Below, piece after piece: positions 18,396-57,808 of a stretch of 64,000 nucleotides of DNA. The stretch is taken from contig JAJPHL010000011.1 in assembly GCA_021325275.1 (NCBI GenBank), positions 62,001 through 126,000 on the forward strand, written 5' to 3'. A model generated the notes under the pieces. That model was not told the DNA's origin. It saw only the letters and a program-made list of their open reading frames with translations, and made no database searches. The position numbers and the translations under genes were made by a program. Origin of the DNA: Terriglobia bacterium. Lineage in GTDB: Bacteria; Acidobacteriota; Terriglobia; JAJPHL01. Every line of letters begins with the position of its first letter. The first letter of the stretch is position 1.

Positions 18396-18514
18396 AAGTC
18401 CTGAGTGCTGAGTGCTGAGTCCTGAGTATAACGCGAGCTTCCTCAGGACTCAGCACTCACGACTCAGCACTCAGCACTCAGGACTCAGCACTCAGGACTC
18501 AGCACTACGCACTT
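18396..18514. repeat. Intergenic array of ACTCAGC/ACTCAGG words with an inverted left part
   Basis: GTCCTGAGTGCTGAGTGCTGAGTCCTGAGT followed by CTCAGGACTCAGCACTCACGACTCAGCACTCAGCACTCAGGACTCAGCACTCAGGACTCAGCACT. Confidence 0.9.
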
Positions 18515-23038: not shown

Positions 23039-23635
23039 CTACGCCCCAGCCAACTTCAACTGATGCGCTTCGCGCGGCACACCCGCTTCGAAGCAGCGGC
23101 GACACCGCGACTCATACGAATCCGCCGCGCCGACCACAATCAGGTCATTCGACTCGATGAGGCGTTGCGTGAACTTCGCGGGATTGCCGCAGCGCACGCA
23201 AATCGCCAAGGTCTTGGTGATTTGCTCGGCGATCGCCAACAAGTCGGGGATCGGCGCAAACGGGCGGCCGAGATAGTCGGTGTCGAGGCCGGCGATGATC
23301 ACGCGCTTGCCGAGGTCGGCCAGGCGTCCGGCGATTTCCGGCAAGTCGGCGCCGAGGAAATTCGCTTCGTCCATGCCGATCACTTCGGTGCGCGGCGCCA
23401 CTTTGTTCATGATCTCAGTGGCCGACGAAACCACTTCTGATTTGATCCGCAGATCGCTGTGCGAAACGATCTCGTCGGCGGAGTAGCGATTGTCGAGCGC
23501 CGGTTTGAAGATTTGCACGCGCTGGCGCGCGATCTCCGCGCGGCGCAAGCGGCGGATCAGTTCCTCGCTCTTACCGGAAAACATGGGACCACAGACTACT
23601 TCGATCCAACCCATATTGCCTTTGACGTTGTCCAT
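23039..23635 (-). CDS. tdk: Thymidine kinase
   Basis: [66 protein letters not shown]. Confidence 0.95.
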
Positions 23636-23649
23636 TGGCTAGGAATTTA

Positions 23650-23685
23650 TTGGAACACGGAAACTCACGGAAATCACGGAAAGTT
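23650..23685. repeat. CACGGAAA-word repeat, left copy flanking the GxxExxY gene
   Basis: TTGGAACACGGAAACTCACGGAAATCACGGAAAGTT; inverted relative to 24045-24082. Confidence 0.85.
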
Positions 23686-24094
23686 ATAGGACGCGACGAA
23701 GCGTATCGAGCGTGCCCCGGCCAAAATTCAGGAGCAAGCCCACTCGCCGTCCCGTTGTCTTCAAGTAGTTCAACAACTGTGCTTCATGCTCCTTCGCCAA
23801 GCGGTCGCGGGCCTTGAATTCGACAAGGACTTTTTCTTCCACGTCCATGTCCGCTACGTACTCGCCCACGACTTCCTGGTCATAGATGACCTTCAATCGC
23901 TTCTCCAGTTCAAAACGAATTCCCTTCTTACGTAATTCGTGCGCCACCGCCTTCACGTGGACCTTTTCAAGGAATCCGCGGCCCAAGGTCTTATGAACGG
24001 TAACCGCAGCTTCGAGGACTGCCCCCGACACATCCCCATGCAACAACCTTTCCGTGCCTTCCCGTGTGTTTCCGTGTTCCAAAACCCTTTCCAT
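23684..24094 (-). CDS. GxxExxY family protein
   Basis: AAVTVHKTLGRGFLEKVHVKAVAHELRKKGIRFELEKRLKVIYDQEVVGEYVADMDVEEKVLVEFKARDRLAKEHEAQLLNYLKTTGRRVGLLLNFG; start assumed at MERVLEHGNTREG. Confidence 0.88.
   Translation of the reverse strand: MERVLEHGNTREGTERLLHGDVSGAVLEAAVTVHKTLGRGFLEKVHVKAVAHELRKKGIRFELEKRLKVIYDQEVVGEYVADMDVEEKVLVEFKARDRLAKEHEAQLLNYLKTTGRRVGLLLNFGRGTLDTLRRVL
24045..24082. repeat. CACGGAAA-word repeat, right copy, overlapping the GxxExxY 5' end
   Basis: Minus strand reads TTGGAACACGGAAACACACGGGAAGGCACGGAAAGGTT. Confidence 0.85.
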
Positions 24095-24098
24095 GACA

Positions 24099-25025
24099 TC
24101 AACCTCTCTCCCCATGATCCCTCGGCAAACCGCGCACCGGCCGCCACGCGGCGCGCGCCTGCTGGAAGCGCTTCTTCCGGTACTCAAACAACCACGGGTG
24201 ATTGAGCACCGGACGCAGCATCGCGCGACGGATGATCCCCAACACGCGGCGGATCGCCACCCAAAACGGGTCCTCCGGCCGGCCCCACTGAAACAGCGCG
24301 AGCTTTGCGGCGATCTGGCCCAACAGCTCGTGTTCGAACGCCGGAAGATCGTCGCGGATACGCCGCCACAATTCTTCTTGCGGTGGCGCGCCCTGAATCT
24401 TGTAAAGCCCGATGGCTTGGGAAGGAATTTTCACCACCGAGAAGCGCGGACAATAAGCAAACTTCGCTCCGGCGCGATACGCTCGCCGGCTCCACTCGAA
24501 GTCCATCGCGATTTCCAAGGTGGACGGATCGGCCCAGTATCCGACGGTTTCTACCAAATCGCGGCGATGCATCCAAGACGACGGTGGGATGAAATGTTCG
24601 CCCAAGTTCTGACCCGCGGGCGCCGTTCCCACGCAACTCAGCCAGCCTTCCGCACCATAGATTCCGCAGATCGAATGGGCAAATCCGGCTTGCGTTCGTT
24701 CGAGCGTCTCCACCAAATCCTTGAGATGATCCGGCAACCAGATATCGTCCTGGCCGAGAAACGCCACATACTTTCCCGTGGCGCGGCGCAATCCTTCGTT
24801 GTTGGGATACCACTGGCTGCCGTAGTTCCGCTGCAAATTGTGCCAGTGGATCCGCGGATCGCCGAGAGAAGCGACGACGTCGCCGCTCGAATCGGTGCAA
24901 GCGTCGCCGATGACCCACGACTCCCAGTTCGTATACGTTTGATTGCGAATGCTCTCCAGCGCGACACGCAATGTCCTGCTGGAGTTGTACGCCGAGGTGA
25001 TGGTGGTGACGAGTGGCTGGTCCAT
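24099..25025 (-). CDS. Glycosyltransferase family 2
   Basis: LVTTITSAYNSSRTLRVALESIRNQTYTNWESWVIGDACTDSSGDVV, YVAFLGQDDIWLPDHL. Confidence 0.92.
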   Translation of the reverse strand: MDQPLVTTITSAYNSSRTLRVALESIRNQTYTNWESWVIGDACTDSSGDVVASLGDPRIHWHNLQRNYGSQWYPNNEGLRRATGKYVAFLGQDDIWLPDHLKDLVETLERTQAGFAHSICGIYGAEGWLSCVGTAPAGQNLGEHFIPPSSWMHRRDLVETVGYWADPSTLEIAMDFEWSRRAYRAGAKFAYCPRFSVVKIPSQAIGLYKIQGAPPQEELWRRIRDDLPAFEHELLGQIAAKLALFQWGRPEDPFWVAIRRVLGIIRRAMLRPVLNHPWLFEYRKKRFQQARAAWRPVRGLPRDHGERG

Positions 25026-34051: not shown

Positions 34052-35785
34052 CTACGGCCGCGCCATCAACGTGACCTCCGCGGTCACCTTCGCGCCGCCT
34101 CGCATCACCGTCACGGTTACCTTGTCGCCGACTTTGCTGTCCTGGAGTTCGTGCGTGAAATCGTACAGATTCTTGATCGCGCGACCGTTCCACGCGACCA
34201 TCACGTCGCCCGCCTTCAATCCCGCTTTTTCCGCGGGACTCCCGGCGCGCACGTCCGCGAATTTCACGCCGTTTTCCGAATCGCCCATGTCCGGAATACT
34301 GCCGAACCAAGGACCGTAGCCGCCTCCGCCACCGCCCACGGGACGCGGCGGCTCTTGCACCTTCACGAATTTCGGCGCATCCGCCAGTTTGTCGAGATGC
34401 AACGCCACGCGCTCAACCAAGCGCAACACTTCGGCCGCCGACTGTGCATCGATCTTGTCCCAGGTGTCCGACGGCTTGTGATAATCGGCGTGCAGTCCCG
34501 AGAAGAAAAACAGCGAGGGCACTTGTTTCAGCGCGAACGACAAGTGATCGCTCGAATCGGTGCCGGTCTTCGAGTATTCAATCTTCAGGTTGCTGTCTTT
34601 CGCTTCTTCCTCCAGGATCGATTGAAACTCGGCCGCTGTGCCTACGTCGCCGATAAACAGCTTGTGGTCTTTCACGCGTCCGATCATGTCCATGTTGAGC
34701 ATGGCTTCGGTTTTTTCGAGCGGAACCAGCGGCGATTTCACGTACGCGGCCGAACCGAACAATCCCAGCTCTTCGCCGGAAAACGCCAGGAACACCAGCG
34801 TCCGGCGATGAGGGACGTTGCGCAACGCACACGCTAGTTCGATCACGCCCGCCGTGCCCGACGCGTTGTCGTCCGCGCCATGATGGATTTGTCCGAATTG
34901 GTCGGGCGCCAGCGAATCGCGGCCGCCCAGGCCCAAGTGATCGTAGTGCGCGCCGAAAATGATCGTTTGATCTTTGAGATGCGCGTCCGATCCCGGCAAT
35001 TCGCCGGCCACGTTGGCGATTCCCCGCGAGCGCCGCACGATATCCGCTTCACCCACGACGCGGCTTGTGAGAACGACAGAATGATTCGAGAAATCCTTGT
35101 CGATCGCTGCTTGCAAATCCTCGAGACGCGCCGGCGAAAGCAATTTATCGGCCACGCGACGCGTTACGTGGAACACCGGCAAGCCCAAATGCTCGATGAC
35201 CGCATCGGATTGGAACGATCGCAAACGATCGTCGCTGCTCTCGGAGTTCACGAGCAACAACGCCACCGCGCCCTTGGCCTTCGCGGTGAGAACTTTTTCC
35301 ACCAGTGCCGCTTTCGTCGAAAAACCCTTGCTTTGATTCGGCGTGCCGCGCAACGCGAGCACAACTTTTCCGGTTACGTCGATTCCCGCGTAGTCGTCAT
35401 AGTGCGGTGGCCAGGAAATTCCGTACCCCGCGAACGCGACGGTGCCCGAGAACTTGCCGGAATCGGAAATGCCGAGCGGCGAAAAGTCTTTGCCGAACGT
35501 GTATCCGGCAAGGCGATTTCCCTGCCCCATCTCGACGCCGACGATCGCGGAATATTTCTGGAAGTACGTGCCGTTGGCCGAATTGGCCGGTTGAAGGCCG
35601 CACGCTTTGAATTGCGCTTCGATGAAATGCGCGGCCTTGTCGAGCTCCGGCTCGTCGTTGCCTCGCCCTTTCAATTCGTCTGACGCGAGATACTTGACGT
35701 TGTCGAGATAACGCTGGGGGGAGATCTCGTTGGTACCAGCGAGAATCGCCACGGCCAAAAGTCCAGCGGCAAAAAATCTGTCCAC
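34052..35785 (-). CDS. M28 family aminopeptidase with PA-like insert and C-terminal PDZ domain
   Basis: IIFGAHYDHLGLGG, GADDNASGTAGVIELA, VFLAFSGEELGLFGS; PDZ ADVRAGSPAEKAGLKAGDVMVAWNGRAI; GTG start at 35785. Confidence 0.9.
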   Translation of the reverse strand: MDRFFAAGLLAVAILAGTNEISPQRYLDNVKYLASDELKGRGNDEPELDKAAHFIEAQFKACGLQPANSANGTYFQKYSAIVGVEMGQGNRLAGYTFGKDFSPLGISDSGKFSGTVAFAGYGISWPPHYDDYAGIDVTGKVVLALRGTPNQSKGFSTKAALVEKVLTAKAKGAVALLLVNSESSDDRLRSFQSDAVIEHLGLPVFHVTRRVADKLLSPARLEDLQAAIDKDFSNHSVVLTSRVVGEADIVRRSRGIANVAGELPGSDAHLKDQTIIFGAHYDHLGLGGRDSLAPDQFGQIHHGADDNASGTAGVIELACALRNVPHRRTLVFLAFSGEELGLFGSAAYVKSPLVPLEKTEAMLNMDMIGRVKDHKLFIGDVGTAAEFQSILEEEAKDSNLKIEYSKTGTDSSDHLSFALKQVPSLFFFSGLHADYHKPSDTWDKIDAQSAAEVLRLVERVALHLDKLADAPKFVKVQEPPRPVGGGGGGYGPWFGSIPDMGDSENGVKFADVRAGSPAEKAGLKAGDVMVAWNGRAIKNLYDFTHELQDSKVGDKVTVTVMRGGAKVTAEVTLMARP

Positions 35786-35849
35786 AGATTACACAGATTA
35801 ACACAGATGAAAAATGGGTCCAATCTGTGCAGTCTGTGTAATCTGTGGA
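35781..35849. repeat. CACAGATT-word inverted repeat
   Basis: TCCACAGATTACACAGATTAACACAGAT (35781-35808) versus ATCTGTGCAGTCTGTGTAATCTGTGGA (35823-35849). Confidence 0.9.
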
Positions 35850-35882
35850 TGGTTGTTGATTCGTAGATTGATCTGTGGAATT

Positions 35883-40715: not shown

Positions 40716-40727
40716 GTCCACAGAAAA

Positions 40728-40821
40728 AACGATCCACAGATTACACAGATTGCACAGATTAGGAGCGGCAAGGAGTGATTCGCGCCCTAATCTGTGCAAT
40801 CTGTGTAATCTGTGGATCGTT
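40728..40821. repeat. Perfect 36-bp inverted repeat made of CACAGATT words
   Basis: AACGATCCACAGATTACACAGATTGCACAGATTAGG (40728-40763) and its exact reverse complement (40786-40821); 22-nt loop. Confidence 0.95.
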
Positions 40822-40910
40822 CTTGTCTTGATCAGTGGAATCGCCGGATTGTGCTACAATAAACGTTTGTGTCCGCTTACGATTTTTGAGCTTAGGGGAA
40901 ACCAGCGACC

Positions 40911-57533: not shown

Positions 57534-57808
57534 AAATATACCGCACTGACCGGCGATTGTTACCACCGAGATCACAGAGAACACAGAGCGCACAGAGAAA
57601 AACAACACAAGGCAAAAGGCAAGAGGCAAAAGGCAAAAGTGAAATATACCGCACTGGCCGGCGATTGTTACCACCGAGATCACAGAGCACCCAGAGCGCA
57701 CAGAGAAGGGCAAAGGGAGCGTCACTTTTGCCTTTTGCCTTTTGCCTCTTGCCTTTTGCCTTGTGTTGCTTTTCTCTGTGCGCTCTGTGTGCTCTGTGAT
57801 CTCGGTGT
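57534..57808. repeat. Composite CACAGAG repeat: duplicated 108-bp unit plus inverted copy
   Basis: AAATATACCGCACTGRCCGGCGATTGTTACCACCGAGATCACAGAG at 57534 and 57642; inverted AGGCAAA/TTTGCCT tracts at 57603-57642 / 57721-57767; inverted CACAGAG block at 57773-57808. Confidence 0.93.

Follow-up and report, generated by a model that had tools for sequence, protein, structure and literature searches.

A GxxExxY gene between inverted arms of tandem words: a candidate single-gene mobile element in a Terriglobia bacterium

Does a small gene of the GxxExxY family that lies between two inverted repeats belong to a mobile element built from the gene and its repeats? The question arises from one locus in a window of 64,000 nucleotides (the whole stretch of DNA that was analyzed) from a Terriglobia bacterium, for which a preliminary description had proposed a small mobile element by analogy with REP/RAYT pairs. 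Arm alignment and word positions both confirmed that the repeats are present and inverted around the gene. The left arm (23650–23685, plus strand) holds three CACGGAA words beginning at 23656, 23666, and 23675 (steps of 10 and 9 nt) behind an outer TTGGAA. The right arm (24045–24082, minus strand) reads CACGGAA (24070–24076), CACGGGA (24060–24066), and CACGGAA (24050–24056) with steps of 10 and 10, CACGGGA being the one imperfect word of this copy. In alignment, 23650–23673 and 24059–24082 form a 24-nt repeat that is 92% complementary, with 385 nt between the arms, and the match continues inward at 23669–23683 and 24048–24062. Pairs of the CACGGAA word number 18 in the source genome, and the reversed control has 0. 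The gene itself (23684–24094, minus strand) encodes 136 amino acids from its ATG, with the GxxExxY domain at about 23696–24031. It stands in a minus-strand series whose order had been given correctly: GT2 glycosyltransferase (24099–25025), GxxExxY, thymidine kinase (tdk; 23039–23635), and GHMP kinase, the last two abutting. The right repeat had also been said to be translated as the N terminus of the protein; this is true when translation is counted from the ATG, and TTG codons just inside the arm provide alternative starts, one of which may be the actual start.

The open reading frame scored above the curated cutoffs of both family profiles, PF13366 (PDDEXK_3; 4.8e-36, 124.1 bits vs. 22) and TIGR04256 (3e-35, 121.1 bits vs. 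35). In the name-giving motif, the window protein reads GFLEKVH, retaining the Gly and Glu and replacing the family Tyr with His. The preliminary description had also proposed predicting the fold and looking for nuclease residues. The AlphaFold2 (AF2) model (pLDDT 91, pTM 0.84) gave Foldseek matches that were weak (best E 2e-3) yet all of PD-(D/E)XK type, the nearest solved folds being Cas4-like SSO0001, AddAB, alkaline and lambda exonucleases, Cas4, and the R2 endonuclease. The D, ExK, and QxxxY residues are nearly invariant across GxxExxY proteins, and the core residues are complete. A search of PDB sequences with the protein returned no match; the closest named viral predicted structure was the PD-(D/E)XK nuclease of a haloarchaeal virus. 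Judged by the model, GxxExxY is a small Cas4/RecB-type PD-(D/E)XK protein and a predicted nuclease.

We then considered how general the bracketing is. For 80 named loci and their relatives, the left flank was aligned to the reverse complement of the right flank, and a score of at least 30 was taken as bracketed; sites with matching geometry elsewhere in these 114 loci served as controls. The repeat enrichment that had been anticipated around GxxExxY genes was strong: 90 of 114 loci reached the score (79%) compared with 10 of 815 offset controls (1.2%). In an enlarged set, 149 of the 183 distinct proteins with enough flank were bracketed (81%) and 141 of the 183 had at least four word copies; bracketing was also seen for 32 of 41 held-out proteins. 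Within the named set, 64 of 79 reached the score with all but one origin group represented, and bracketed loci came from Bacteroidota, Chloroflexota, Planctomycetota, Verrucomicrobiota, Pseudomonadota, Acidobacteriota, and others. The bracketed-gene design thus recurs over most bacterial phyla, with differing words. Single words are short, and CACGGAAA occurs 8 times in the window where 3.3 are expected, so chance or low sequence complexity near a small gene that is common might be imagined to account for the pattern; however, the offset and shuffle controls lie near zero and refute it, leaving this explanation with practically no probability.

The words follow a grammar, CRCVRAD (C-R-C-V-R-A-D), with a minority of ACAGGAT type. 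An arm usually consists of three words at steps of 8–10 nt with an outer flank TTMAC, and the words point inward from the left arm in 131 of 141 cases. The CACRGA word that had been proposed as the repeat unit fits the window (CACGGAA) but fails as a common word, since copies use differing words. About 19% of GxxExxY genes have no detectable arms. These include apparently orthologous copies in one genus (G016/G024), which argues that some GxxExxY genes are resident and not mobile. At five loci (L069, L073, L079, L082, and L110), each arm is itself a word hairpin, an arrangement that resembles a gene placed between two hairpins of the gene-less kind.

The source genome (6.86 Mb) has seven PF13366 members, and a tandem-word inverted repeat accompanies all seven (7/7). 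In six cases the repeat surrounds the gene, and in the seventh (L005) the arms lie together as a hairpin immediately upstream of the gene rather than around it. These inverted repeats are 92–97% complementary over about 36 nt in six copies and over the 24-nt core in the window copy. The words of the seven copies are CACAAAG, CACCGAG, CGCCGAT, CGCAGAG (two copies), CACAGATT, and CACGGAA; because the word varies from copy to copy, a plain search for repeats would overlook this arrangement. The window also holds hairpins that have words and no gene. One at 35776–35866 (approximate ends) has CACAGATT-type words, the word family of a gene-bearing element of the same genome (L006), and another at 40720–40830 (approximate ends) has CACAGATT words. 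A third, at 57564–57808, is a composite in which outer CACAGAG/CACCGAG words enclose inner period-7 GGCAAAAGG words, and this nesting indicates that elements of the CRC-word and period-7 classes can land in each other. In 834 kb (12% of the genome), on which the hairpin density is based, we counted 48 short strong inverted repeats vs. 0 in shuffled sequence. Triple CRC words were present in 26 of these 48 inverted repeats, which would put the genome-wide number of CRC-word hairpins at roughly 200 if the sample is representative. Their words mostly equal those of the gene-bearing copies; the exception is a CACAGAG hairpin family, found in this genome although CACAGAG is not among the words of its seven genes.

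Paired arms around a gene could also be features of transcription or RNA, namely terminator-like or mRNA-stabilizing hairpins around an unrelated small gene, and the arms can indeed pair, are intergenic, and have A/T-rich outer flanks. We therefore compared the two arms within each element. Word letters mismatched in 4.7% of comparisons, a figure biased low because words served to find the arms, and spacer letters, whose figures are less affected, mismatched in 35%. The two arms nevertheless had equal spacer lengths in 204 of 221 comparisons, vs. 30% after shuffling. No clear sense-strand enrichment of G-U-compatible mismatches was seen among the arm pairs compared. Agreement of words and spacer lengths between arms, with much less agreement of spacer letters, is more in keeping with sites that a protein reads in fixed register than with a stem under selection for pairing. 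The poorly pairing spacers, the absent G-U bias, the distance of about 400 nt between the arms of gene-bearing copies, and word letters that follow the protein (see below) make an RNA feature very unlikely.

We then compared the words with the sequences of the GxxExxY proteins. We counted word changes on a tree of 93 proteins with <70% identity and compared them with shuffled assignments. Word position 7 required 12 changes (shuffled 27.3, SD 1.6), position 5 also 12 (21.9, SD 1.5), position 4 required 27 (34.3, SD 2.0), and the first spacing 18 (33.5, SD 2.1). Host phylum did no better than shuffled on the same tree (29 vs. 30.9). By these counts, word positions 4, 5, and 7 and the spacing track the protein tree and host phylum does not. 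Column statistics pointed to particular residues: when the residue immediately ahead of the IIGAAIEVH helix is Thr, word position 5 is G (50 of 50 cases), and when that residue is Ala, Val, or Cys, the position is A (18 of 18). Words with T at position 7 have Asn before the QxxxY tyrosine in 21 of 22 cases, so that Asn vs. Ser/Thr predicts position 7. Across independent supported branches, the position-5 relation changed the same way in about 5–6 pairs and the opposite way in none (p 0.03–0.06); the position-7 residue had too few changes for this test. For word position 2 (A/G), neither column statistics nor the tree gave a residue with a convincing explanation.

A further 41 proteins, fetched after the rule had been noted, yielded 24 words as a held-out set. 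Position 7 (G or not G) was called correctly for every CRC word (23/23), and of the 16 position-5 calls that were decidable, 14 were correct. The held-out proteins were 48–74% identical to the training set and came from already sampled genomes, so this result tests the rule rather than fully independent lineages. Recognition of the words by the GxxExxY protein is, on this comparative evidence, well supported, and the protein very probably binds the words of its own element directly.

Word arrays are also tied to the gene across genomes. In a survey of 149 genomes of the phylum (55 with the gene and 94 without), word arrays, counted with the gene's own arms, were found in 32 of 55 genomes with a GxxExxY gene vs. 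3 of 94 without. Put the other way, the gene was present in 32 of 35 array-bearing genomes and in 23 of 114 array-less ones (p 1.8e-14 by Fisher's test, which ignores relatedness). CACAGAG triple arrays occurred in 30 of the 149 genomes, 27 of them with the gene (Fisher 2e-11), the other three carrying such arrays without it; CGCAGAT triple arrays occurred in 10 genomes, all with the gene. Word and gene agree as well. In a hand tally of 24 genomes for which the word of at least one gene, though not of every gene, was read, CACAGAG arrays were present in 12 of 12 genomes with a CACAGAG gene and in 3 of 12 with other words. The array step likewise matches that of gene-bearing CGCNGAT elements, being 10 nt in genome G000 and mostly 9 nt in genome G122. 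Identical CACAGAG arrays in genome G174 were embedded in larger mosaics and gave no clean ends.

At the window's own junction, the nearest relative compared (G001, locus L359) has tdk and GHMP kinase with a different gene upstream of tdk, resembling in translation an LpxD-type acyltransferase and lying behind a period-7 word array, so that no clean empty GT2–tdk site was found in that genome. Its tdk–GHMP kinase interval also resembles period-7 words. Presence/absence variation was found instead at two orthologous junctions within one genus of this phylum. At 30–36 nt, the thiolase/hydroxyacyl-CoA dehydrogenase junction is empty in 16 genomes, holds gene-less hairpins (CGCGGAG/CGCAGAG, CGCGAAA, or CGCGAAT) in eight, and holds gene-bearing elements (CGCAGAT or CACAGATT) in six, one of them with a shortened insert. 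The dihydroorotase/IMP dehydrogenase junction contains CACCGAT gene-bearing elements, CACCAAG hairpins, period-7 hairpins, an HNH gene, or almost nothing. On the local tree, an empty genome is nested with high support among hairpin-bearing genomes, and two sister genomes have different words at the same site. Elements thus come and go, with words changing in concert. Because the intergenic sequence on both sides of the junctions often differs, some presence/absence may have been imported by recombination of larger blocks, and local recombination may contribute to the pattern. No target-site duplication was read at the junctions studied, where empty and filled forms are too diverged, and no clean element ends were found. 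Taken with these comparisons, it is highly likely that GxxExxY elements have been mobile in the past.

The gene might instead encode a resident nuclease for which the hairpins are marks, decoys, or processing sites in repair, replication, or defense, the repeats having spread otherwise. The arm-less copies that persist in the G016/G024 genus would suit such a role, as would a fold of the Cas4/AddB group. So would the distribution of the family, for which single-query searches found 7 of 72,556 plasmids and 0 of 50,697 phage records, and viral contigs had none; the rarity of the family on plasmids and its absence from the phage and viral collections searched lend little support to phage- or plasmid-borne spread. 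However, gain and loss affect gene and arms together, a genome often has several such units with different words, gene-less forms occupy the same sites, and PADLOC gave Cas4-like matches below threshold only. We regard a resident nuclease as improbable.

Similar architecture also occurs with other genes. S23p (PF05635) genes have inverted period-7 arrays (AGTGCTG, GGCAAAA, CAGCTAT, and others; L156–L187), which bracket all four S23p genes of the source genome (contigs C31, C14, and C15) and, at a score of at least 34, 65% of 31 loci vs. 0 of 116 controls. This appears to be a system parallel to the GxxExxY one, from which rRNA intervening sequences may have come, and the parallel suggests that tandem-word arms around one small gene are a recurring design. 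The HNH gene at the dihydroorotase/IMP dehydrogenase junction encodes an endonuclease of 228 amino acids and lies between CACCAAG arms in two species (L300, 1481–2167; L301, 1527–2213; also L366), other species having the gene-less CACCAAG hairpin there; a relative in genome G065 has similar short arms. Other enzymes can therefore occupy the arms. In genome G132, an IS5-like insertion sequence (L218, 543–2117) took up a GxxExxY element with the word CGCGGAG near its end and amplified it, giving at least 28 matches, many of them truncated. Every match is interrupted at the element, so element-free copies of the carrier were not found in G132, and Rfam gave no match on it. The S23p and HNH arrangements and this carrier are what might be expected if the arms were non-autonomous ends moved by another enzyme of the cell, with the GxxExxY gene as cargo. 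Cargo, however, would not predict word letters and spacing, which follow the GxxExxY tree and specific residues, and the arrays are strongly tied to gene-bearing genomes; we consider a passenger role unlikely.

The reading that we favor as probable is that the locus in the window is a copy of a word-coded mobile element with a single gene, organized as a duo like a REPtron but using an unrelated enzyme. Enrichment, junction variation, gene-less copies, word prediction, and fold all support the mobile element and the REP/RAYT analogy of the preliminary description. In this mechanism, the GxxExxY protein would bind the words of each arm of its own element, word and protein coevolving, and the bound protein would bring or hold the element ends together. 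From its fold, it would probably cut at or near the arms; the cut unit would enter intergenic junctions, being copied or moved, and gene-less hairpins with the same word would be derivatives served in trans. We infer that the protein itself is likely to catalyze the mobility. A broader proposal, toward which we lean by a narrow degree, is a separate class of autonomous mobile DNA in which a nuclease of ∼120 residues with a near one-residue-per-base code would move its gene and hundreds of hairpins, with many word dialects per genome and an S23p analogue on period-7 words.

Among known systems, REPtrons (REP/REPIN with RAYT/TnpA-REP; PMC2817692, PMC3116915, PMC8266576, and PMC3733652) come closest in organization. 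Both have a nuclease-type gene flanked by repeats that it presumably serves, with gene-less repeats as intergenic inverted doublets and coevolution of enzyme and repeat, and we found the gene flanked by its own repeats along with dispersed gene-less copies. However, RAYT belongs to the HUH tyrosine enzymes and acts on a folded REP that bears a GTAG-type tag, and the GxxExxY arms are tandem 7-nt words at 8–10 nt steps whose consensus lacks that tag. Membership was rejected on both counts: Pfam and fold yield PD-(D/E)XK only, with no HUH/Y1 tyrosine enzyme, and in place of a GTAG/CGTC tag beside a 20–40 bp palindrome, an outer consensus TTMAC precedes CRCVRAD. The predicted fold and the D, ExK, and QxxxY residues are shared with the Cas4/RecB/AddB/lambda-exonuclease group and the R2 restriction-like endonuclease; unlike that group, GxxExxY is a single domain of ∼120 amino acids between word arms and has no helicase, Cas, or RT partner. 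Insertion sequences and MITEs have terminal inverted repeats, one gene, and non-autonomous derivatives in common with GxxExxY elements, whose terminal repeats, unlike theirs, consist of short words in tandem that vary from copy to copy within one genome. An insertion sequence was rejected for the window copy, where only the GxxExxY gene fits between the arms and no transposase family matched. A homing endonuclease gene within an intron, intein, or conserved gene was likewise rejected, since the elements lie between genes both in the window and at the two junctions described above.

Open-license literature contained no description of GxxExxY word-arm elements (an earlier description elsewhere is possible); the literal repeat sequences appeared there only in animal papers, and one mention of GxxExxY in an RT paper was not about repeats. 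The findings point to an undescribed kind of mobile genetic element. Widespread GxxExxY/PDDEXK_3 genes of unknown role would gain a DNA target readable beside each gene, and a large class of dispersed bacterial hairpin repeats would be explained. The many natural enzyme–target pairs could be used to work out a protein–DNA code for a predicted nuclease of very small size, and the concept of nucleases that live alongside dispersed repeats of their own would extend to a second enzyme fold.

A possible source is also suggested for S23p intervening sequences in 23S rRNA (PMC4990558), which resemble GxxExxY elements in having one small ORF between terminal inverted repeats and for which earlier authors proposed mobility (PMC4990558). 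S23p is a four-helix bundle (PF05635) forming an unrelated homopentamer, and its sequences lie in rRNA and are removed by RNase III, whereas GxxExxY elements are intergenic and have other words. As an identity for the window copy, an intervening sequence was rejected, the gene being PF13366 rather than PF05635 and its neighbors GT2 and tdk. Dispersed intergenic tandem 7-mers, as here, are also known from heptanucleotide direct repeats such as TAACTGA (PMC4679880) and from cyanobacterial STRR; for TAACTGA, a protein that binds the repeats was suggested as the part that may be mobile (PMC4679880). Their period of 7 resembles the S23p-associated class and not the 8–10 nt CRCVRAD class. The window has an array of this S23p-type class as well: at 18397–18506, period-7 AGTGCTG/AGTCCTG words form an inverted array without a gene.
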